Shown: positions 304 to 9,056 of the stretch, piece after piece
Layout of the letters: every line of letters starts with the position of its first letter
Numbering within the stretch: the stretch's first letter is position 1
From: Roseburia sp.
Lineage (GTDB): Bacteria; Bacillota; Clostridia; Oscillospirales; Ruminococcaceae
Length of the DNA: 37,479 bases
Assembly: GCA_023666265.1 (NCBI GenBank)
Contig: JAMPCH010000027.1
Location: 1-37,479 of the forward strand
Direction: 5' to 3'
Translations under genes and position numbers: made by a program
Notes under the pieces: model-generated
What the model saw: only the letters and a program-made list of their open reading frames with translations
Told to the model about the DNA's origin: nothing
Database searches by the model: none

Positions 304-330
304 TAAAGTTTTTATCCGATCCGACGATAT
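304..330 (+). promoter_or_regulatory. Sigma-28 (SigD/FliA)-type promoter
   Basis: TAAAGTTT (304-311), an 11-base spacer, then GACGATAT (323-330). Known flagellar sigma-factor consensus sequences are TAAAGTTT-N11-GCCGATAA (FliA) and TAAA-N15-GCCGATAT (SigD). Only one base of the -10 differs from the SigD form. The site lies 45 bases before the start at 376. Confidence 0.75.
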
Positions 331-375
331 AACACATAAGAATAGATTTCGTTTTTGTGTATAGGAGGCGTTCAT

Positions 376-1284
376 ATGTTAAAAATCACGGATTACGCGT
401 TTTTATTTCAAAATACAAACGGCACGGGGAAAACGAACCCCATAGGTAGCTTTCGATTGTCTCAATTGAACAGCAAAAGCGTACAAAATCAGCTTAAAGC
501 GGCGGGCATTGATACAAACAGCAAGCAATACAAGGCTGTGATGAAACAGATGATGAAGGACGCGAACGGCTGCGGCGCGATGTACACCAATCCGCAGGCT
601 ATCAAAAATTTGATGAAAAATTATGACTCCGACGGGAACTTTTTGAATGTGTACGGCGTAGCCGGAATGGACGCGACAGGAAAGAGCCTGTCGGAAATGC
701 ACCAAATCATAGACGTTTCGGAAGAATACAGACAAAAAATGTTTGATGAATGTAAGCGTCATTTTATTCAAGAAAACGGTGTCGCGAACGGAGATACCAC
801 AAAAAGGACAGAAGTGTTTACGGCATATCAAAAAAGCGTTCCGATCGAAGACCGCTTAAAAGGCACATGGACATTAGGACAATACGAAAGAAATTACACC
901 TTGGCTTTTGCCGAGGCTGTCAAGGCGGTTGATCCGAATTGGAAAATCGGCGATCCTTTTGATACAAAAATTTTAGACAGTGTTACAAGAGAGTCGGTTG
1001 ACGCTTCGCTTGTCAAATCATATGGTCAGTATGGGGAAATATTAGTCGTCGGGAATACCGCCGAGGCTTCAAAAGCCGAAAGTTCCTTAAAAAATAACAG
1101 CATTTCCCGAGTCGAGAACGCTGTAAGAGAAGGACTAAAAAATTACTCTCCCAAAATAGCTCAAGCGAAGGAGATGGAAGTCGAGATCGGCGGCGATATA
1201 AGAGCCGAAAAGGTAAGGCGGCTTGAAAAACAGCTGAAAGAGGGGACGTTTAAGAACAGCGATGCGCTTGATACGAAGGCTTAA
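376..1284 (+). CDS. DUF3879-like protein, sigma-28 controlled
   Basis: A 302-aa protein with no signal peptide and no membrane segment. ATG 376 follows ATAGGAGGCG at proper spacing; the in-frame GTG at 355 has no ribosome binding site. The N-terminal segment (ITDYAFLFQN, then IDTNSKQYKAVMKQMMKDA at about residues 45-65, then IKNLMKNYDSDGNFL) resembles, from memory, the DUF3879 family of gut Firmicutes; this needs a profile search. The segment NYDSDGNFLN is EF-hand-like, but only one copy is seen. The C-terminus is charged and helical. The promoter at 304-330 matches the motility sigma factor, so expression with flagellar or chemotaxis genes is inferred. Function is unknown. The surrounding DNA is more AT-rich than the rest of the window. 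Confidence 0.8.
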   Translation: MLKITDYAFLFQNTNGTGKTNPIGSFRLSQLNSKSVQNQLKAAGIDTNSKQYKAVMKQMMKDANGCGAMYTNPQAIKNLMKNYDSDGNFLNVYGVAGMDATGKSLSEMHQIIDVSEEYRQKMFDECKRHFIQENGVANGDTTKRTEVFTAYQKSVPIEDRLKGTWTLGQYERNYTLAFAEAVKAVDPNWKIGDPFDTKILDSVTRESVDASLVKSYGQYGEILVVGNTAEASKAESSLKNNSISRVENAVREGLKNYSPKIAQAKEMEVEIGGDIRAEKVRRLEKQLKEGTFKNSDALDTKA

Positions 1285-1309
1285 CGCTTCCCCAAAAACG
1301 TCGATTATT

Positions 1310-1777
1310 TCAGTCGTCCCGTCTGTGATCTCTCCGAAATAAGATCAGGTGGGTGACCGTGTAAGGAATAAGCTGATAAACAAACGAAGCGGCGGCTTGA
1401 CAGACAGCGGAATATTTTTTTGTCCCATAGCCCAAATATTCCGCAAGCCATGGGAAATTCGGGAAATCGATCCCGGTCATTGTCGGGAGGATATCCGGAT
1501 AAAAAACAGCAAAGCCCGCAAATATCAACAGGAACGACGGCAGCCAAAAACAGACTTTTGACCCGATAGCTCCGGCTAAAATCGCCGCCGATATTTCTGT
1601 TACGCTGATAATGAAAAATCTGATGATTTCCGTGGGCGCCATTATCCCTTGGCTCCTCACCCCCATGAACCAAAGAACGGGTTCAATTACCTGTGTATCG
1701 AGAATGATGATCAGATATACGCTTATTTGAATGATCATTGTTAGGATCAGATTGAAAAGCAACGGATGTTTTTTCAT
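1310..1777 (-). CDS. Small integral membrane protein
   Basis: A 155-aa protein with about four hydrophobic segments: LILTMIIQISVYLIIIL near the N-terminus, FFIISVTEISAAILAGAIG, FWLPSFLLIFAGFAVF, and a C-terminal VYQLIPYTVTHLILF. The start is supported by GGGAGGAG six bases upstream on the minus strand. The C-terminal tail is charged. No family is recognised and no catalytic motif is seen. It converges with the DUF3879-like gene, the stops being only 25 bases apart. No clear promoter is visible; a 43-bp hairpin (1812-1854) sits just upstream of the start. Confidence 0.65.
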   Translation of the reverse strand: MKKHPLLFNLILTMIIQISVYLIIILDTQVIEPVLWFMGVRSQGIMAPTEIIRFFIISVTEISAAILAGAIGSKVCFWLPSFLLIFAGFAVFYPDILPTMTGIDFPNFPWLAEYLGYGTKKYSAVCQAAASFVYQLIPYTVTHLILFRRDHRRDD

Positions 1778-1811
1778 ACTCTCCTCCCGTGTATAAAACG
1801 AATAAAAATCC

Positions 1812-1854
1812 GACCCGCGTCATATATGCCTCAAAAGGCTCTGTGACGCGGGTC
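1812..1854. repeat. 11-bp perfect hairpin upstream of the membrane gene
   Basis: The arms are GACCCGCGTCA (1812-1822) and TGACGCGGGTC (1844-1854), with a 21-base loop. On the minus strand it is followed by GGATTTTTATT, so it could terminate minus-strand transcription entering from the right, just before the gene at 1777. Confidence 0.5.
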
Positions 1855-1915
1855 TTAAAATTTTGGTCGGGCGAGTAAATGCCCGGTAAGACGCGGAACA
1901 GACCCCAGACCCTAC

Positions 1916-2081
1916 TAGGGCGTGTTGACACAATCGCAAGACGCCCGTCTTACAAGCATATTTTCCGTCTTTCTTCGTTAAAAATCCTTGAAATACATAC
2001 AGTATTCCTGCGGCTTTTTGCCTCGAAACACGAAAAATCTGCTTGCAATCCGAGCATTTCGAATTGCGTCAACAAGCCCTA
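1916..2081. mobile_element. MITE-like element, 162 bp
   Basis: Imperfect terminal inverted repeats GGGCGTGTTGACACAAT (1918-1934) and the complement of GGGCTTGTTGACGCAAT (2063-2079) match at 15 of 17 positions. They are flanked by TA on both sides (1916-1917 and 2080-2081), as expected for a TA target duplication. The interior has no convincing ORF, so this would be a non-autonomous element mobilised by a transposase elsewhere. The family (IS630-like or an IS5 subgroup) cannot be assigned from the sequence alone. Confidence 0.6.
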
Positions 2082-2276
2082 ATACCCAGTATAGCACAGC
2101 CCGGGGCAAAGGTCAAGTCGGAAATTGAGGCGGTGTAAAGAAAGAACAGAAAAAATTCGAGGCATGGAGGTTCTCACTTTGCTTGATTTTTTCTCAACAA
2201 ATACGTTGTAGATATTTCCGAGAAAAAGTGATATGATGATAGCGGAAGCTCCCGAAAAATAAAAGGAGTTGATACT

Positions 2277-2418
2277 ATGCTTAAACTCGGAGAAAATATA
2301 AAAAGGCTTCGTATACAAAACGGGCTTACCCAAGAGCAGCTGGCGGAGGTATTCGGCATATCGCCGCAGGCGGTCAGCCGTTGGGAGTTGGGCGCGACCT
2401 TCCCCGACATTGCGCTCG
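2277..2418 (+). pseudogene. Truncated XRE-family regulator fragment
   Basis: Starts at an ATG with a good ribosome binding site (AAAAGGAG) and encodes about 47 residues of a standard XRE helix-turn-helix domain (LGENIKRLR, LTQEQLAEVFGISPQAVSRW, TFPDIAL). The family continues at this point with a run such as LLPxLA. Here the homology stops near 2416 and the frame runs on through tRNA-Pro in the antisense direction, which is not plausible protein. The break lies about 30 bases from the tRNA-Pro 3' end. The residual peptide could still be made, but it is most likely a deletion remnant. Confidence 0.65.
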
Positions 2419-2445
2419 GGAGCGTATCGGGGGTCGCCTTGCGAC

Positions 2446-2521
2446 TGGTCGGAGTGACAGGGTTCGAACCTGCGGCATCCACATCCCAAATGTGGCGCGC
2501 TACCAACTGCGCTACACCCCG
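2446..2521 (-). tRNA. tRNA-Pro (anticodon TGG)
   Basis: A 76-nt cloverleaf on the minus strand: acceptor CGGGGTG/CACTCCG, D stem GCGC/GCGC, anticodon stem CCACA/TGTGG with loop TTTGGGA (anticodon TGG), T-loop TTCGAAC, discriminator A and an encoded CCA (2446-2448). A consensus promoter lies about 200 bases upstream, so the primary transcript has a long leader. Confidence 0.95.
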
Positions 2522-2591
2522 GTCTTTATTTTGGCGCAGGAGCGCTCGCGCGGGGAAGGGACAACGCCCGCCCGCCGCTCGGGTGCGCTTT

Positions 2592-2694
2592 ATACCGATC
2601 CGCAATGAAAACCGTAGACAAAAAATCCGTGCAAAACCGCATATATCCAAGCTTTGGCTTGACTTTTTGTACGGTTTTCATCGCGTATCGGTAT
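2592..2694. repeat. 103-bp imperfect palindrome in the tRNA-Pro leader
   Basis: Arms of about 33 bases begin ATACCGAT (2592-2599) and end ATCGGTAT (2687-2694), with matching inner blocks around ATGAAAACCGTA. The centre is less conserved. In the RNA made from the tRNA-Pro promoter it would fold into a long hairpin upstream of the tRNA. No ORF fits it. Confidence 0.65.
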
Positions 2695-2729
2695 TAGCGC
2701 ACGCCTGCACAAAAAGCTTATACATATTT

Positions 2730-2758
2730 ATTATACTCTCTCTCGCGTCCGCTGTCAA
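2730..2758 (-). promoter_or_regulatory. Sigma-70 promoter of tRNA-Pro
   Basis: On the minus strand, TTGACA (2758-2753), a 17-base spacer, then TATAAT (2735-2730): a perfect match to consensus. The only product downstream is tRNA-Pro, preceded by the palindrome at 2592-2694. Confidence 0.85.
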
Positions 2759-2807
2759 GACGCGTGGAAAAAATTTCTCCTTTCCCCAATTTTTTTCTCC
2801 CAAACTG

Positions 2808-2836
2808 TTTACAAAATGTGCAAAATGTGTTATTAT
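2808..2836 (+). promoter_or_regulatory. Sigma-70 promoter of the PFOR gene
   Basis: TTTACA (2808-2813), 17-base spacer, TATTAT (2831-2836). It diverges from the tRNA-Pro promoter and leaves an untranslated leader of about 70 bases. Confidence 0.75.
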
Positions 2837-2914
2837 TATCATAGTTGCAGGAGCTTTCCCGCGGAAGAGCCGCGCGGTCGGGCGGACTGCGAAAAATAAA
2901 GGAGGATGTTTCCA

Positions 2915-5900
2915 ATGGCAAGACAAAAACTCACAATGGACGGTAACAACGCCGCCGGTCACGTCTCATACGCGTTTACCGAGGTCGCGGCGATCTACCC
3001 CATTACCCCTTCTTCCGTGATGGCGGAGGTAACCGATTCCTGGGCGACTCAGGGACGAAAAAATATCTTCGGACAGGAGGTACAGGTCGTCGAGATGCAG
3101 TCCGAGGGCGGCGCGGCGGGCGCGGTCCACGGCTCTCTCGCGGCGGGCGCTTTAACGACGACTTATACCGCGTCACAGGGTCTGCTCCTCATGATCCCGA
3201 ATATGTATAAGATCGCCGGCGAGCTGCTCCCGAGCGTGATCCATGTTTCCGCCCGTGCGCTCGCGTCTCACGCGCTCTCGATCTTCGGCGACCACAGCGA
3301 CGTTTACGCCTGTCGTCAGACCGGGTACGCGATGCTCTGTTCGACCAACCCCCAGGAGGTCATGGACTTGGGCGCGGTCGCGCATCTGTCGACCCTCAAG
3401 GGGAGAGTACCCTTCCTCCATTTCTTCGACGGCTTCCGTACCTCGCATGAGATCCAAAAGATCGAGGTTTGGGACTATGATACCCTCGCGAAAATGGTGG
3501 ACATGGATGACGTCGCGGCGTTCCGCGATCGGGCGCTCAACCCCGAGAAGCCCGTCCTCCACGGGACGGCGCAGAACCCGGACATCTTCTTCCAGGCGAG
3601 AGAAGCCTCCAACGGCTACTACAACGCGCTCCCCGAGATCGTTACCGAGTATATGAATAAGGTAAACGCCGAGATCGGGACGGATTATAAGCTCTTTAAC
3701 TATTACGGCGCGCCCGACGCGGAGCATGTCATCGTCGCGATGGGTTCGGTCAACGACACCATCGAGGAGACGATCGACTATCTCGCGTCGAAGGGGAAGA
3801 AGGTCGGCTTGGTAAAGGTTCGCCTCTATCGTCCGTTCTCCGTCAACGCCTTTGTGGACGCGATCCCCGCGACCGCGAAGAAGATCACCGTCCTCGATCG
3901 GACAAAAGAACCCGGCGCGATCGGCGAGCCGCTCTATCTCGACGTTGTCGCGGCGCTCCGTCAGGCGGGGAAGTTCACCGACGTTCCCGTATTCAGCGGA
4001 CGCTACGGCTTAGGCTCTAAGGATTGTAACCCCGCTCAGATCATCGCGGTCTACAACAACAACGACAAGCCGCGCTTTACGATCGGGATCGAGGACGACG
4101 TGACCGGGTTATCTCTCCCGATCGGCGAAAATCCGAACACCACACCCGAGGGGACGACCTGCTGTAAATTCTGGGGTCTCGGCTCGGACGGTACGGTCGG
4201 CGCGAACAAGAACTCGATCAAGATCATCGGCGACCATACCGATATGTACGCACAGGCGTATTTCGCCTATGACTCAAAGAAGTCGGGCGGCGTAACGATC
4301 TCTCACCTACGCTTTGGGAAGTCCCCGATCAAGTCGACCTATTTCGTCAATAAGGCGAACTTTGTCGCCTGTCATAACCCCTCTTATATCGATAAATACG
4401 ATATGGTACAGGACGTGATCCCCGGCGGTTCTTTCTTACTCAACTGTCAGTGGTCGGTCGACGAGCTGGACGAAAAGCTCCCCGCGCCGGTGAAGGCGTA
4501 TATCGCGAAGAACAACATCAACTTTTATATCATCAACGCGATCAAGGTCGCGAAGGAGATCGGTCTCGGGAACAAGACCAACACCGTTTTACAGTCGGCT
4601 TTCTTCTCCATCGCGAACATTATCCCTGCGGACGACGCGATCGAGTACATGAAAAAGGCGGCGTATAAGTCCTTCGCCAAGAAGGGCGAGGACATCGTCA
4701 ATATGAACTACGCCGCGATCGAAAAGGGCGCGGGCGAAGTGATTAAGGTCGACGTTCCCGCCGCTTGGGCGAACGCCGAGGGCGAGCTTCCCGTTCATGT
4801 CGCGACGGGCGACCGGGCGGATCTCGTCGATTTTGTCAACAAGATCCAGATCCCCGTCAACGCTCAGCGCGGCGATCAGCTCCCCGTATCGACCTTCGTC
4901 GGTATGGCGGACGGTACGTTCCCTCAGGGTTCGGCGGCGTATGAAAAGCGCGGGATCGCGGTCGACGTACCGCAGTGGATCCCCGAAAACTGTATCCAAT
5001 GTAACCAATGCTCGATGGTATGTCCGCACGCGGTCATCCGTCCGTTCGTTCTGAACGCGGACGAGGCGGCGAAAGCGCCCGAGGGCATGAAGATGAAGGA
5101 CGCGACCGGGCTCGCGGGCTTTAAGTTCGCGATGGGGATCTCGGTACTCGACTGTACGGGCTGCGGCGTCTGCGCGAACGTATGTCCCGCGAAGAACAAG
5201 GCGCTCGAGATGAAGAGTCTTGATTCTCAGCTCGACGAACAGCCGAAGTTCGACTACGCGATGACCCTCGCGGAGAAGCCCGAGGTCGCCGAGAAATTTA
5301 AGACGGCGAGCGTCAAGGGGTCGCAGTTCAAGCAGCCGTTGCTGGAGTTCTCCGGCGCGTGCGCGGGCTGTGGCGAAACGCCTTACGCAAAGCTTGTGAC
5401 CCAGCTCTTCGGCGACAGGATGTATATCGCGAACGCGACCGGGTGTTCGTCCATTTGGGGCGGCTCCGCGCCTTCCACACCGTATACGGTGAATAAGTCG
5501 GGGAGAGGTCCCGCTTGGGGCAACTCGCTCTTTGAGGACAACGCGGAGTACGGTCTCGGTATGTTCCTCGCTCAGGATACCCTTCGCGGGAGAGCGCAGG
5601 AGAAGCTGAAGGCGCTCGAAGCGGTCGCGGAAAAGCCCGAAATGAAGGAAAAGATCGCGAAGTACTTCGAGACGGTAAACGACGGCGCGGCGAACCTCGC
5701 GGCGACGACCGACCTGATCGCGGCGCTCGAGAGCTGTGGCTGTGACAAGCCCGAGAAGGCGGAGGTCTTAAAGCTCAAGAATTACCTCTCGAAGAAGTCC
5801 AACTGGATCTTCGGCGGCGACGGCTGGGCGTATGACATCGGCTACGGCGGCGTCGATCACGTCCTCGCGAGCGGAAAGAACGTCAACGTATTCGTATTCG

Positions 5901-6451
5901 ATACCGAGGTCTACTCCAACACGGGCGGTCAGGCGTCAAAGGCGACGAATATCGGCGCGGTCGCTCAGTTCGCGGCGGGCGGTAAGAGCGTAAAGAAGAA
6001 GGATCTCGCCGGGATCGCGATGAAGTACGGCTATGTTTACGTGGCTCAGATCGCGATGGGCGCGGATATGAACCAATGCATCAAGGCGATCTCCGAGGCG
6101 GAGGCTTATGACGGTCCGTCGCTCATCATCGCCTATGCGCCTTGTATCAACCACGGGATCAAGGGCGGTCTCACGATCGCGCAGAAGGTCGAGAAGGAAG
6201 CCGTTCAGGCGGGCTATTGGCACTTATTCCGCTTTAACCCCGCTGCGCCCGAGGGGACGAACCCCTTCACACTTGACAGTAAAGCGCCGACCGGCGACTA
6301 TAAAGAGTTCATGATGCGCGAGGTGCGCTATAACTCGCTCATGCGCGCGAACCCCGACCGGGCGAACAAGCTCTTTGACATCGCGGTCGAGAACAGCAAG
6401 AAGAAGTATGACGACCTCGTAGGTCTTGTGGACTATTACGCGGTCAAGTAA
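2915..6451 (+). CDS. nifJ: Pyruvate:ferredoxin (flavodoxin) oxidoreductase
   Basis: A 1,178-aa homodimer-type PFOR that oxidises pyruvate with CoA to acetyl-CoA and CO2 and reduces ferredoxin in the cytoplasm. ATG 2915 lies nine bases after AAAGGAGG; the ATG at 2906 is too close to that site. Domain order is the normal one: N-terminal pyruvate/TPP-binding domain (AAIYPITPSSVMAE), a transketolase-C-like domain, the gamma-type domain, then a two-[4Fe-4S] ferredoxin insert with C693/C696/C699/C703 and C747/C750/C753/C757. The C-terminal TPP-binding domain contains CAGCGETPYAK, NATGCSSIWG and GGDGWAYDIG. All fold markers and cluster cysteines are present and length is normal. It has its own promoter and terminator, so it is monocistronic. 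Main catabolic use is most likely; a role in electron supply to nitrogenase is the historical origin of the symbol only. Confidence 0.97.
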   Translation: MARQKLTMDGNNAAGHVSYAFTEVAAIYPITPSSVMAEVTDSWATQGRKNIFGQEVQVVEMQSEGGAAGAVHGSLAAGALTTTYTASQGLLLMIPNMYKIAGELLPSVIHVSARALASHALSIFGDHSDVYACRQTGYAMLCSTNPQEVMDLGAVAHLSTLKGRVPFLHFFDGFRTSHEIQKIEVWDYDTLAKMVDMDDVAAFRDRALNPEKPVLHGTAQNPDIFFQAREASNGYYNALPEIVTEYMNKVNAEIGTDYKLFNYYGAPDAEHVIVAMGSVNDTIEETIDYLASKGKKVGLVKVRLYRPFSVNAFVDAIPATAKKITVLDRTKEPGAIGEPLYLDVVAALRQAGKFTDVPVFSGRYGLGSKDCNPAQIIAVYNNNDKPRFTIGIEDDVTGLSLPIGENPNTTPEGTTCCKFWGLGSDGTVGANKNSIKIIGDHTDMYAQAYFAYDSKKSGGVTISHLRFGKSPIKSTYFVNKANFVACHNPSYIDKYDMVQDVIPGGSFLLNCQWSVDELDEKLPAPVKAYIAKNNINFYIINAIKVAKEIGLGNKTNTVLQSAFFSIANIIPADDAIEYMKKAAYKSFAKKGEDIVNMNYAAIEKGAGEVIKVDVPAAWANAEGELPVHVATGDRADLVDFVNKIQIPVNAQRGDQLPVSTFVGMADGTFPQGSAAYEKRGIAVDVPQWIPENCIQCNQCSMVCPHAVIRPFVLNADEAAKAPEGMKMKDATGLAGFKFAMGISVLDCTGCGVCANVCPAKNKALEMKSLDSQLDEQPKFDYAMTLAEKPEVAEKFKTASVKGSQFKQPLLEFSGACAGCGETPYAKLVTQLFGDRMYIANATGCSSIWGGSAPSTPYTVNKSGRGPAWGNSLFEDNAEYGLGMFLAQDTLRGRAQEKLKALEAVAEKPEMKEKIAKYFETVNDGAANLAATTDLIAALESCGCDKPEKAEVLKLKNYLSKKSNWIFGGDGWAYDIGYGGVDHVLASGKNVNVFVFDTEVYSNTGGQASKATNIGAVAQFAAGGKSVKKKDLAGIAMKYGYVYVAQIAMGADMNQCIKAISEAEAYDGPSLIIAYAPCINHGIKGGLTIAQKVEKEAVQAGYWHLFRFNPAAPEGTNPFTLDSKAPTGDYKEFMMREVRYNSLMRANPDRANKLFDIAVENSKKKYDDLVGLVDYYAVK

Positions 6452-6470
6452 AAGCAAAGTAATATGAATC

Positions 6471-6526
6471 AAAACAGCGCGTTTCCCTCGGGGGTTCTCC
6501 TCGAAAAGACGCGCTGTTTTTTATTT
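6471..6526 (+). terminator. Terminator of the PFOR gene
   Basis: AAAACAGCGCGT and ACGCGCTGTTTT pair across a short loop and are followed by TTTATTTTA. It lies 20 bases after the stop. Confidence 0.85.
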
Positions 6527-6578
6527 TATGCTTTTATTTTTTGGGAAGGAGCGGGGGCGGGGCGGTCGTCGTTTTGGC

Positions 6579-7211
6579 TTAAACGTTTTTGTCGCTATGA
6601 TATTGCTCACAGTTCAACTTTACCGCGCCGACCTGTCCGCCTTCACAATAGATAATGTCGTCGCATTGTATTTGATAAGCGTCGATGATGTCGCGGCAGG
6701 TGATGTTTCCGTGAGAGCGGATCTCGCCGACCTTTATGTCGCCGCTCGCTCGGACGTCCCCGTTGATGCTCCCGCATTCCATCGTCCCGTGACATACCAC
6801 GTCCCCGTTGACAGAGCTGTCGGAGACCAAATCCCCGAAGACCTCCACTTTAAAATACTGTGTTTCGTTATTACAGTCGTGTGGGAAGGCGATCTCGATC
6901 GGAGGATGATTTTGGGAAGGAGCGGATATATCCAAAATTTGCTTCCCCCTCATTTGTACGACCCTGATCACGTCGTCGTCCTTGATCCGATCTGAAGCGA
7001 TGATCCGATCCGATATATGATCGGAAAAAAGCGCGTCGATGGAAACGCCGAAACATTCGGCGATCGGCGGTAAGAGCGAAATGTCGGGCGTGTTGACGCC
7101 CGTTTCCCACTTGGAGACCGCCTGATAAGAAACACCCAAGCGCTCCGCGAGCGCTTCCTGCGTCAAGTTATTCTTTTGACGTAAATATTTGATGTTAGAC
7201 CCGATATTCAT
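6579..7211 (-). CDS. XRE regulator with bactofilin-like repeat tail
   Basis: A 210-aa protein. Residues 1-60 are an XRE helix-turn-helix domain (IKYLRQKNNLTQEALAERLGV, split here as IKYLRQ and LTQEALAERLGVSYQAVSKW, then TPDISLLPPIAECFGVSIDALF). Residues of about 125-200 form a short-period repeat rich in NGD, SGD and CG steps (VNGDVVCHG, INGDVRASGD, HGNITCRD) like the right-handed beta-helix of bactofilin/polymer-forming proteins, with several cysteines. ATG 7211 has AAAGGA upstream, and a promoter lies at 7243-7271. A DNA-binding domain fused to a beta-helix suggests an assembly-dependent or envelope-sensing repressor; that is inference. It diverges from the DUF4869-like operon, which is a candidate target. 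Confidence 0.85.
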   Translation of the reverse strand: MNIGSNIKYLRQKNNLTQEALAERLGVSYQAVSKWETGVNTPDISLLPPIAECFGVSIDALFSDHISDRIIASDRIKDDDVIRVVQMRGKQILDISAPSQNHPPIEIAFPHDCNNETQYFKVEVFGDLVSDSSVNGDVVCHGTMECGSINGDVRASGDIKVGEIRSHGNITCRDIIDAYQIQCDDIIYCEGGQVGAVKLNCEQYHSDKNV

Positions 7212-7242
7212 AGTGATGCGTCCTTTCTTATGATTTGGTTTT

Positions 7243-7271
7243 ATTATACCATAGGATAAGGGGCAATTCAA
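7243..7271 (-). promoter_or_regulatory. Promoter of the XRE regulator
   Basis: Minus strand TTGAAT (7271-7266), 17-base spacer, TATAAT (7248-7243), about 32 bases before the start codon. Confidence 0.7.
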
Positions 7272-7373
7272 TAACCGAGCTGTCGTATTTTTCGAGCGGG
7301 GGTTGAATTTTTATATAGCGATCGTGTGTGCTGTTTCGTCGCCGCGAAACGCAAAAAAAATCCCCCAAAAAGC

Positions 7374-7400
7374 TAAAGTTTTCCCCCTTCCCGCCGATAA
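7374..7400 (+). promoter_or_regulatory. Sigma-28 (SigD/FliA)-type promoter
   Basis: TAAAGTTT (7374-7381), 11-base spacer, GCCGATAA (7393-7400): a full match to the FliA consensus. The block 7361-7410 is repeated at 8986-9035 with two mismatches in 50. A weaker sigma-70-like pair (TTGGGT 7447-7452, 18 bases, TATACT 7471-7476) lies between it and the gene. Confidence 0.85.
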
Positions 7401-7423
7401 AACAATCAGAGCTTTTATCGGCG
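7392..7423. promoter_or_regulatory. Dyad centred on the predicted start of transcription
   Basis: CGCCGATAAAA (7392-7402) and TTTTATCGGCG (7413-7423) form a perfect 11-bp inverted repeat that includes the -10 element. Its centre (7407.5) is 14.5 bases from the first base of the -10, exactly as in the second copy at 9009-9056. It could be an operator. Confidence 0.5.
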
Positions 7424-7545
7424 AAGGTCGCCCGAATGTCCGACGCTTGGGTATTTGAGGCGATCATGGCTATACTATAAGGTGAGAGAAAAGGCTTTTT
7501 ATCGCGGTGGGGATCTCCTTCGCGGGAAAGGAACGGTCATCCATT

Positions 7546-7995
7546 ATGCTCAGCGTTTATTTCGGCGATCTGTCGCCGAACGGTAAGGACACGATCTATA
7601 ATACGAGCGTTTATTTTAACAACACCTATAAAGACGCTTGGATCACGACGCCTTTGGCGAAGGAGATGATAAAAGCCGTCGATCGCTCCGAGGTCGTTGA
7701 CGAAAAGACCATACTCAGCCCCGTTTTGGGCAGCATCGGACCGAAAAGGTTATCGGGCGGGGTAAAAACGCTTTTATTGATCGCTTATGATAAGTCAAAG
7801 ATCTTTAACGCGTCCACATGCGGCGATAACTGCGCGGAGTGGATCTTAAAGATCGCCGAGGGTCGTAAGGTCGAGATCAGTCTTTATCATCTGATGGATT
7901 TTGGGAAGGGCGAGTTTAAAATAAAGATCCTAAATACGGGGAAGATCGTTAAAAATATGGGCGAGCTTGTCTCGGAAGCGGGCGGATTTGTGTGA
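7546..7995 (+). CDS. DUF4869-like protein
   Basis: A 149-aa soluble protein. It resembles, from memory, the DUF4869 family: MLSVYFGD at the start, VYFNNTYKDAWITTPLAKEM, SPVLGSIGPKRLSGGVKTLLL, then NASTCGDNCAEWILKIAEG and IMDFG-like and KILNTGK segments near the C-terminus. ATG 7546 is used; a GGGAAAGGAA site lies 13 bases before it, somewhat far. The frame opens at a GTG (7507) without a ribosome binding site. The stop overlaps the ribosome binding site of the ATPase gene, so the two are one operon under the sigma-28-type promoter at 7374. Biochemical function is unknown. The conserved cysteines C100 and C104 (CGDNC) could bind metal or form a disulphide. Confidence 0.85.
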   Translation: MLSVYFGDLSPNGKDTIYNTSVYFNNTYKDAWITTPLAKEMIKAVDRSEVVDEKTILSPVLGSIGPKRLSGGVKTLLLIAYDKSKIFNASTCGDNCAEWILKIAEGRKVEISLYHLMDFGKGEFKIKILNTGKIVKNMGELVSEAGGFV

Positions 7996-8002
7996 GGTGC
8001 TT

Positions 8003-8968
8003 ATGACGGGAGTTCATCACGTTGAGGTCAAAAACAGGGACGCGAGGTTTAAGTTTGACCTGTATCGGAATATCACCGTTGTTCGCGGAAACAGCGGAAC
8101 GGGAAAGACCACGCTTTTTGAAATGATCGCGGATTATACCCGGTTAAAAGAAGCCAGCGGCGTCAACCTATCTTGTGATAAGGATTGCGTCGCGCTGACG
8201 GATACGGATTGGAAAAATCAGCTCTCGGGCGTTACCGACAGTATTGTCTTTATCGACGAGGGCGCGGTATATTTAAGGTCAAAGGATTTCGCCAAAGCGA
8301 TAAAGAGGACGGATAATTATTACGTGATCTTTAGCCGCGAAAATCTACACGAGCTACCGTACAGCGTCGAGGAGATCTATGAGATCCGGGCGAGCGGTAA
8401 ATTTCATTCTTTTAAAAAAATGTATCGGTCGGAAAAGCATATCTATTATAAAGACGGCTCACGAAGCAAGCCGAAGCCCGACGCGCCGTTTCATGCGTTA
8501 CTGACGGAGGATTCGAGATCGGGCTATCGGTTTTACTGCGCTTTTTTCCGAGACGACGGGGTCGAGTGTCACACGTCGGGCTCAAATTCGGCGATCTTTC
8601 ATTGGCTGAACGAGCATCGGGACGAAAAGGTTTTTGTGATCGCGGACGGCGCGGCTTTCGGCTCGGAGATCGATAGAATTTTAAAGCTCCGCTCGGCGGA
8701 AAATTTTCGGCTATGTCTGCCCGAATCGTTTGAGTGGCTTATTTTAAAATCGGGGCTGATCAAGACCGAGGATATCGCCGATCTCCTTGATCGCCCTTCC
8801 GATTTTATCGAGAGCGCGGATTTTTTCAGTTGGGAGAATTTTTTTGAGAAGTACTTGACGGATCATACCGTCGGTACGCCGTTTCAATATTCAAAAAGCG
8901 AGCTGAACCCTACATATCTGAATCGGGCGAACGCCGAAAGGATCATCGGCGAGATCTTTCAAAACTAA
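8003..8968 (+). CDS. Small P-loop ATPase paired with the DUF4869-like gene
   Basis: A 321-aa protein with a Walker A GNSGTGKT at residues 29-36 and a Walker B SIVFIDE at 80-86. There is no ABC signature LSGGQ and no helicase or AAA sensor motif that can be recognised. The N-terminal layout (short strand, RNITVVRG, P-loop) is like SMC/AAA-type ATPases that recognise a stored target. Residues from about 170 form a second, uncharacterised domain. ATG 8003 follows GAGGTG, which overlaps the previous stop, giving translational coupling. The pair is the core of a possible two-component unit. Relatives are sometimes labelled translation initiation factor in databases; nothing in the sequence supports that. 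Role in defence, motility or envelope maintenance cannot be decided here. Confidence 0.8.
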   Translation: MTGVHHVEVKNRDARFKFDLYRNITVVRGNSGTGKTTLFEMIADYTRLKEASGVNLSCDKDCVALTDTDWKNQLSGVTDSIVFIDEGAVYLRSKDFAKAIKRTDNYYVIFSRENLHELPYSVEEIYEIRASGKFHSFKKMYRSEKHIYYKDGSRSKPKPDAPFHALLTEDSRSGYRFYCAFFRDDGVECHTSGSNSAIFHWLNEHRDEKVFVIADGAAFGSEIDRILKLRSAENFRLCLPESFEWLILKSGLIKTEDIADLLDRPSDFIESADFFSWENFFEKYLTDHTVGTPFQYSKSELNPTYLNRANAERIIGEIFQN

Positions 8969-8998
8969 AGAAGGCGTAAAATAATTCCCCCAAAAAGC

Positions 8999-9025
8999 TA
9001 AAGTTTTTCCCCTTTCCGCCGATAA
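8999..9025 (+). promoter_or_regulatory. Sigma-28 (SigD/FliA)-type promoter
   Basis: TAAAGTTT (8999-9006), 11-base spacer, GCCGATAA (9018-9025), a full match to the FliA consensus. It begins 31 bases after the ATPase stop, so the next gene has its own promoter even though it is in the same direction. Confidence 0.85.
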
Positions 9026-9056
9026 AACAATCAGAAGCATTATCGAGGAAAGGGGG
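9009..9056. promoter_or_regulatory. Extended dyad over the second sigma-28 promoter
   Basis: CGATAA (9020-9025) pairs with TTATCG (9040-9045) and, after two mismatches, CCCCTTTCC (9009-9017) pairs with GGAAAGGGG (9048-9056). The centre is 9032.5, again 14.5 bases from the start of the -10. The right arm also carries the ribosome binding site of the gene at 9066. Confidence 0.5.

Follow-up and report, generated by a model that had tools for sequence, protein, structure and literature searches.

The window, meaning the whole stretch of 37,479 nucleotides (nt) that was analysed, is contig C19 of a Roseburia sp. genome (G000; 2.81 Mb, 98 contigs). It contains three sigma-28-type promoters, and the genes behind them encode a DUF3879 protein, a DUF4869 protein with a P-loop ATPase, and a DUF6033 protein. 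The firm result of our analysis is that uncharacterised families form a flagellum-restricted, sigma-28-linked set; DUF3879 and DUF6033 are its two members in the window. The features are listed below.

304–330, forward strand: sigma-28 promoter TAAAGTTT-N11-GACGATAT (pattern scan), 45 nt 5' of the DUF3879 start codon
376–1284, forward strand: DUF3879 gene (PF12995, 1.5e-77 for the longer open reading frame (ORF) from 355), with an AGGAGG ribosome site just 5'
1267–1284, forward strand: codons of the tail L-D-T-K-A plus stop, the shared tail motif (tail comparison)
7350–7420, forward strand: repeat copy 1, about 70 bp, containing the 7374 promoter (local alignment score)
7374–7400, forward strand: sigma-28 promoter TAAAGTTT-N11-GCCGATAA (pattern scan), 145 nt 5' of DUF4869
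7546–7995, forward strand: DUF4869 gene (PF16163; 2.5e-57 with the longer ORF starting at 7507), of a family that is not linked to flagella
8003–8968, forward strand: P-loop ATPase gene, the conserved partner of DUF4869 (Pfam, neighbour comparison)
8975–9045, forward strand: repeat copy 2, containing the 8999 promoter (local alignment score)
8999–9025, forward strand: sigma-28 promoter TAAAGTTT-N11-GCCGATAA (pattern scan), 40 nt 5' of the DUF6033 start codon
9066–9983, forward strand: DUF6033 gene (PF19498, 5.5e-10)

The window was scanned with the pattern TAAAGTTT-N11-G[CA]CGATA[AT]. Exact matches were found at 304, 7374 and 8999 and nowhere else, and none of 400 dinucleotide shuffles of the window contained one. 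Three other sites had up to three mismatches, each of them exactly three, giving six sites in total against a shuffle mean of 1.38. The scan confirmed an earlier sequence-only reading of the window, which had reported three sigma-28-type sites with an 11-base spacer, each facing the next gene. That reading also held that two of them fit the FliA consensus completely. Compared with the E. coli sigma-28 consensus TAAAGTTT-n11-GCCGATAA, as given in an excerpt of PMC2859248, the 7374 and 8999 sites were full matches, and the 304 site differed at two positions of the –10 element. The promoter sequences themselves are real sites. The likely start codons that they face are ATG 376, ATG 7546 and ATG 9066, and the second is distant from its promoter. 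We do not claim a housekeeping promoter for the 7400–7546 interval: TATACT at 7471–7476 was noticed by eye only, and a consensus scan did not return it. Among the 23 ORFs covered by the Pfam scan of the window, which left out pheS, pheT and several small ORFs, no flagellar family scored above cut-off, in agreement with the earlier statement that the window has no flagellar gene.

The 7374 and 8999 sites sit in two copies of a block of about 70 bp (local score 100; background maximum 30). The 304 site has part of the block in common with the 8999 copy (score 41), and its comparison with the 7374 block (score 29) was within background. These results indicated that the sites are not three independent inventions. 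A 10-bp inverted repeat (GCCGATAAAA ... TTTTATCGGC) at 7393–7422 takes in the 7374 promoter's –10 element, and the 8999 copy preserves this repeat only in part.

A search of the source genome for fliA/sigD found a sigma-28 gene (fliA) at C12:6939–7580, with a TIGR02479 score of 203.8 bits against a curated cut-off of 189.6. It adjoins flhA, fliP and fliR and is located between flhA and a rod-type gene. The order flhA, sigma gene, rod-type gene is also described for Eubacterium siraeum in an excerpt of Neville et al. (PMC3720852). The genome-wide scan with the promoter pattern returned 24 sites, of which 7 were exact, 2 had one mismatch and 15 had two; the reversed pattern, used as control, returned 6. 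Exact sites were located before a flagellin gene on C20 (Flagellin_N, 1.9e-45) and a FliD_C-like gene on C10 (6.6e-7). Both one-mismatch sites are on C15, where one precedes an operon with FlgN (9e-10) and FlgK (4.3e-25). The first gene of this operon has the place expected of flgM, yet it had no Pfam match.

Two further exact sites were noted. The one on C26 lies before a 224-residue protein (L009:1596–2270) that begins Ser/Thr/Lys-rich, has no Pfam match and may also belong to the set. The one at C16:5671–5697 on the reverse strand (L004) is not followed directly by a clear gene, as the nearest ORF begins about 240 nt further; it possibly drives a small RNA.

The distribution of the families was analyzed in two samples: a class sample (293 genomes, 119 with FlhA) and a family sample (150 genomes from 149 genera, 78 with FlhA). 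The latter represents the family of G454, which we take to be Lachnospiraceae. Co-occurrence with flhA in the family sample was assessed by Fisher tests, which are blind to the tree. DUF6033 was present in 47 of the 150 genomes (46 above cut-off), and all 47 carried flhA (p = 3e-18). Because the sample holds nearly one genome per genus, this link is hard to explain by kinship. In the class sample, DUF6033 scored above cut-off in 15 genomes, 14 of them with FlhA (background 119/293). At an E value of 1e-3, 16 of 18 had FlhA, and the two without it were G033 and G415; inspected by eye, the match in G415 appears to be due to chance. DUF3879 was present in 10 genomes of the family sample, all with flhA (background 78/150; p = 0.0015), and in 3 of the class sample, all with FlhA. 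It is rare in its own order (4 of 197 genomes sampled). As both distributions are flhA-restricted in the family sample, the reading of a flagellar regulon holds for both families.

Another genome of the genus, G061, encodes on C79 the closest DUF6033 relative that was found (47% identity over 163 residues). The gene lies about 4 kb past flhA and a sigma gene, in a cluster with fliM, and TAAA-N16-GCCGATAT (11/12) was found shortly 5' of it. Its product ends MMDTKA, and the next gene is FlxA-like (2.5e-8). A second DUF6033 gene of G061 (L054) has a perfect sigma-28 site. DUF6033 genes can be multiple, with 5 matches in the source genome and 7 in G598.

DUF3879 loci were collected from named records (L074–L153, n = 80), 79 of them with upstream sequence. 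Upstream sites were scored on a 16-point scale on which 13 or more counted as strong, with the reverse complements (n = 79) as controls. Strong sigma-28-like sites were found in 18 of the 79 upstream regions and in none of the controls. Fifteen of the 18 were within 100 nt of the match; those of L083, L084 and L106, more than 260 nt away, are probably chance. The window DUF3879 is a long variant with an additional C-terminal region, and the six loci closest to it (L074–L077, L081, L082) all scored 14–16. In a regular-expression scan, five DUF3879 loci other than the window's own gave no site, though the YE44 gene among them scores 13 on the 16-point scale.

The DUF3879 genes keep a recurrent company, always on their own strand. 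The neighbour families were DUF6033-like (21 loci), c4 (17), DUF4885 (10), c8 and c9 (8 each), c10 and c11 (7 each), c13 (6), a FliD_C-like family (5), and c17, c18 and c20 (4 each). Two of them, c11 and c17, are possibly remote relatives of DUF6033. FlxA-like genes were found beside DUF6033 or DUF3879 genes in L066, L118 and L136. We scored these cassette genes for a core sigma-28 site, TAAA-N15-G[CA]CGATA[AT] (12 points), with 520 ORFs of the same loci as controls. The full score was reached upstream of 9 of 186 cassette genes and of none of the control ORFs, and 11 or more upstream of 20 of 186 and 5 of 520, respectively. In L091 the order is sigma-28 site, c9, c18, DUF6033, DUF4885, DUF3879. 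L091, L092, L093 and L147 all have one sigma-28 site followed by four to six cassette genes with DUF3879 last; these are related records, and some further scored sites there fall inside genes. Near the DUF3879 genes of L074–L153, 33 loci also had LytTR-type regulators and 26 had GHKL-type kinases; these resemble Agr quorum-sensing parts, and one example of each was confirmed.

The AlphaFold 2 model of DUF3879 is mainly helical, with a predicted local distance difference test score (pLDDT) of 80. Comparisons with the PDB found no related fold (best E 2.3) and nothing convincing by sequence (best 0.23). For DUF6033 the mean pLDDT was 66; residues up to about 126 were mostly below 50 and were followed by an alpha/beta part and a long helix. 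The PDB contained no related fold (best E 0.51) and nothing convincing by sequence (best RecA 0.0011, MotB 0.011). An NCBIfam scan of ten proteins gave nothing above cut-off, and no rod or hook domain was matched in the cassette proteins scanned. Profile comparisons covered three pairs. They indicated no homology between DUF3879 and DUF6033 (0.3%) or between DUF6033 and c4 (0.2%), and gave 15.7% for DUF3879 and c4, over the N-terminal part.

Some families without detected homology share a C-terminal ending. The strict tail, hydrophobic-D-x-[KRSQT]-[AIV] at the C-terminus, was found in 49 of 75 DUF3879 proteins, 8 of 22 DUF6033-like, 13 of 16 c4 and 1 of 10 DUF4885, and in none of 507 controls. 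A broader form was found in 63 of 75, 9 of 22, 14 of 16 and 3 of 10, respectively, and in 4 of 4 c18 proteins; it was also on 4 of the 507 controls, two of which were FlxA-like proteins. Among 272 ORFs of the window and of stretches of G000 and G061, only three had the strict tail, all of them DUF3879 or DUF6033 genes. The broad form added a DUF6470 protein adjoining fliW, one small unrelated ORF and two more DUF6033 proteins. Of another 30 DUF6033-type loci, 6 have the tail, with D or N allowed, and 7 more end alike by eye with a final G or L. Three of the 30 (L059–L061) are weak matches, other and longer proteins by eye, and probably chance.

In excerpts of PMC8983047 and PMC10936197, early flagellar subunits have small non-polar residues at the extreme N-terminus and a gate recognition motif (FlgD 36–40) at least 26 residues further on, and FlgE, FlgC and FlgG additionally have a C-terminal signal. 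We examined the N-termini of 156 cassette proteins whose starts are supported by ribosome sites, with 86 controls. None of the cassette proteins had a hydrophobic N-terminal segment (controls 32/86) or a membrane span (controls 37/86). Their residues 2–40 were rich in Ser (13.7% vs 5.5% in controls), Asn (9.5% vs 4.9%) and Gln (6.5% vs 3.1%) and nearly free of Cys. Over whole proteins, Cys made up 0.53% (197/37065) compared with 1.36% (372/27383) in controls and 1.34% in soluble controls alone. A leave-family-out N-terminal profile separated DUF6033-like, c4, c8, c9, c11 and c13 from their own shuffles (0.78–0.92), and c17 at 0.70.

FxxxPhi was used as a presumed stand-in for the gate motif. 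It exceeded shuffles in c4 (9/12), c9 (6/8), c11 (4/5), c13 (7/7) and c17 (4/4), and its F was at residues 26–35 in 28 of 54 matches over ten clusters. Controls had it in 46 of 81, compared with 47.6 in shuffles. The overall result was mixed, so the export reading is supported unevenly.

The DUF4869/ATPase pair behaved differently from the two flagellum-linked families. In the loci compared (L154–L179), the ATPase adjoins DUF4869 in 20 of 26, the window's counted, and a full sigma-28 match was found in 1 of 25, the window's own. DUF4869 was present in 30 of the 150 family-sample genomes, 13 with flhA (p = 0.31; above cut-off 12 of 28), and above cut-off in 5 of the 293 class-sample genomes, 4 with FlhA. 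G523 and G551 have 13 matches each. The pair occurs both with and without flagella, and L174, whose ATPase is the most similar one in this set of loci (64%), is in a genome without FlhA. As a general rule, a motility operon was rejected on the counts of flhA (13/30) and sigma-28 matches (1/25). A known defence system was rejected as well: the ATPase had only weak matches (LmuB 2.3e-5, PtuA 0.001) and DUF4869 had none. The simplest history is that the pair ended up downstream of a copied DUF6033 promoter, with no order of age among the copies claimed. In this strain the window pair may be read from the copied promoter.

Taken together, we propose that the DUF3879 and DUF6033 proteins of the window are late sigma-28 flagellar-regulon accessory proteins exported by the flagellum, and that DUF4869/ATPase is separate. 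We give this reading a probability of roughly 0.6. Both genes would be late (sigma-28, FliA) genes of the flagellar regulon, and their products would be part of a large group of small accessory proteins, most of them unnamed, that flagellated Clostridia produce together with the filament. Their most likely exit route would be the flagellar type III export system. The unfolded Ser/Asn/Gln-rich N-termini, many beginning with a small non-polar patch, may engage the export gate, and the tail hydrophobic-D-x-[KRSQT]-[AIV]-COOH of several families may serve as a targeting or chaperone-docking tag. Outside the cell, the proteins may attach to the filament or have effects on neighbours or the host. 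DUF4869/ATPase would be a separate non-motility pair behind the duplicated copy of the DUF6033 promoter. We infer the export via the flagellum, the role of the tail and the function outside the cell from sequence features; likewise, sigma-28 dependence of the window genes in vivo, and the term regulon, are predictions from promoters and distribution. A broader version holds that flagella of gut Clostridia export a large, so far unrecognised repertoire (DUF3879, DUF6033, DUF4885, FlxA-like and at least seven unnamed clusters) and that the five-residue tail, common to several unrelated families, is a new targeting tag; we regard it as tentative, with somewhat less than an even chance.

Several observations weigh against the proposed role. 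Co-occurrence is no substitute for a secretion assay, and one genome is a clear exception: G033, of the same order and given as 100% complete, has three DUF6033 matches (L055, L069) and no FlhA. The DUF6033 genes on C52 and C75 of the source genome have no clear site, with best scores on the gene strand of 10/12 and 9/12 and, within 250 nt, of 9 and 8. Among the DUF3879 upstream regions, 61 of 79 lack a strong sigma-28 match, and of the 18 strong ones three are more than 260 nt off; many DUF3879 genes are internal to operons, as demonstrated for some only. The last residues of the window DUF6033, GFSFRA, come close to the tail but fall outside the motif count, and the strict tail was absent from all nine other clusters, c18 among them. 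The N-terminal profile barely beat shuffles for DUF3879 (0.58), c10 (0.61), DUF4885 (0.55), FliD_C-like (0.56), c20 (0.57) and c18 (0.48). FxxxPhi was depleted in DUF3879 (3/65 vs 29 in shuffles), near shuffles in DUF6033-like (3/20), DUF4885 (4/8), c10 (3/4) and c20 (3/4), and absent from c8 (0/3), c18 (0/4) and FliD_C-like (0/3).

The sigma-28-controlled proteins might instead stay inside the cell as regulators, anti-sigma-like or flagellar assembly factors. The window DUF3879 ORF has a weak FlgM Pfam match at residues 269–300 (0.0076; 16.9 bits, cut-off 25), and five long relatives (L075, L076, L077, L081, L082) have alike endings by eye, K[MV].RLE.[QR]L..G. The lack of signal peptides is also compatible with a cytosolic protein. 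However, five long relatives had no FlgM match at 0.1, and membership of DUF3879 in the FlgM family (PF04316) was rejected on this result and the sub-cut-off score. The presence of several DUF6033 copies per genome also argues against an intracellular role. Low Cys, polar N-termini and a tail common to families without detected homology are more suggestive of a shared route than of a single regulatory role. We consider an intracellular role unlikely. If the promoters are real and the genes are simply a mobile cassette expressed in motile hosts, with no functional tie to the flagellum, the patchy distribution of DUF3879 (10/150; 4/197 in its own order), the conjugation-like or transposase-like ORFs seen by eye near some copies (L040, L042) and the block that the window promoters have in common would be explained. 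This view does not fit DUF6033, which is common (47/150), strictly flhA-linked in the family sample and inside the flagellar cluster of G061, nor the FliD_C-like and FlxA-like company, and we regard it as very improbable.

The sequence-only reading had placed all three operons in one motility-coupled regulon. The part concerning DUF3879 and DUF6033 stood, with fliA present, sites upstream and flhA in 10 of 10 and 47 of 47 genomes. The perfect promoter at 7374 in the direction of DUF4869 is what speaks for including the pair. Its flhA counts do not differ significantly from background, the one full sigma-28 match among its 25 loci is the window's own, its closest ATPase relative among the loci is in a genome without FlhA, and the promoter at 7374 lies 145 nt from the start codon and is a copy of that at 8999. 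A single regulon of all three is therefore quite unlikely, and export of DUF3879 and DUF6033 with a separate DUF4869/ATPase pair is our preferred reading.

Two other features of the window were noted. An ORF at 2277–3020 with an XRE-type regulator start (by eye) runs into a tRNA-Pro gene (2446–2521), as if cut off. At 6579–7271 on the reverse strand, an HTH_3 regulator with a weak bactofilin/FapA-like C-terminus is divergent from the 7374 promoter.

If the broader version is true, these commensals would use the flagellum to secrete non-flagellar proteins, as a secretion system with a function beyond swimming and being sensed as flagellin. Several unnamed families of motile commensal Clostridia in gut and rumen would gain a testable role at once, and the shared tail would offer a simple handle on export. 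Among open-licence PubMed Central (PMC) papers, none was found on DUF3879, DUF4869, DUF6033 or DUF4885, and none on cysteine in flagellar proteins; among those listed, no title concerned a sigma-28 regulon of such genes in Clostridia.

FlgM is small, unfolded, sigma-28-linked and exported by the flagellum. The window DUF3879 resembles it in the weak C-terminal Pfam match; the differences are that this match is below cut-off and comes after a DUF3879 domain. In E. coli, flxA is dependent on sigma-28 and has no known role. The likeness of FlxA-like proteins (PF14282), a different family, consists of their company with DUF6033 and DUF3879 genes and the broader tail, nothing more. Unlike the early subunits FlgD, FlgE, FlgC and FlgG, the cassette proteins scanned matched no rod or hook domain, and the stand-in gate motif is depleted in DUF3879; the C-terminal signal of FlgE is the 371–380 region, whereas the cassette tail is a five-residue terminus. 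Flagellum-secreted non-flagellar proteins are best known from Campylobacter, where the Fed/Cia genes are co-expressed under sigma-28. The Campylobacter jejuni Fed/Cia proteins are secreted by the flagellum, dispensable for motility and required for colonisation, according to an excerpt of PMC12445086. By description, the window proteins would be like them as accessory proteins that go with a flagellum, their secretion being only predicted. Unlike Fed/Cia, they belong to many families in operons, several with a common C-terminal tail, in Clostridia.

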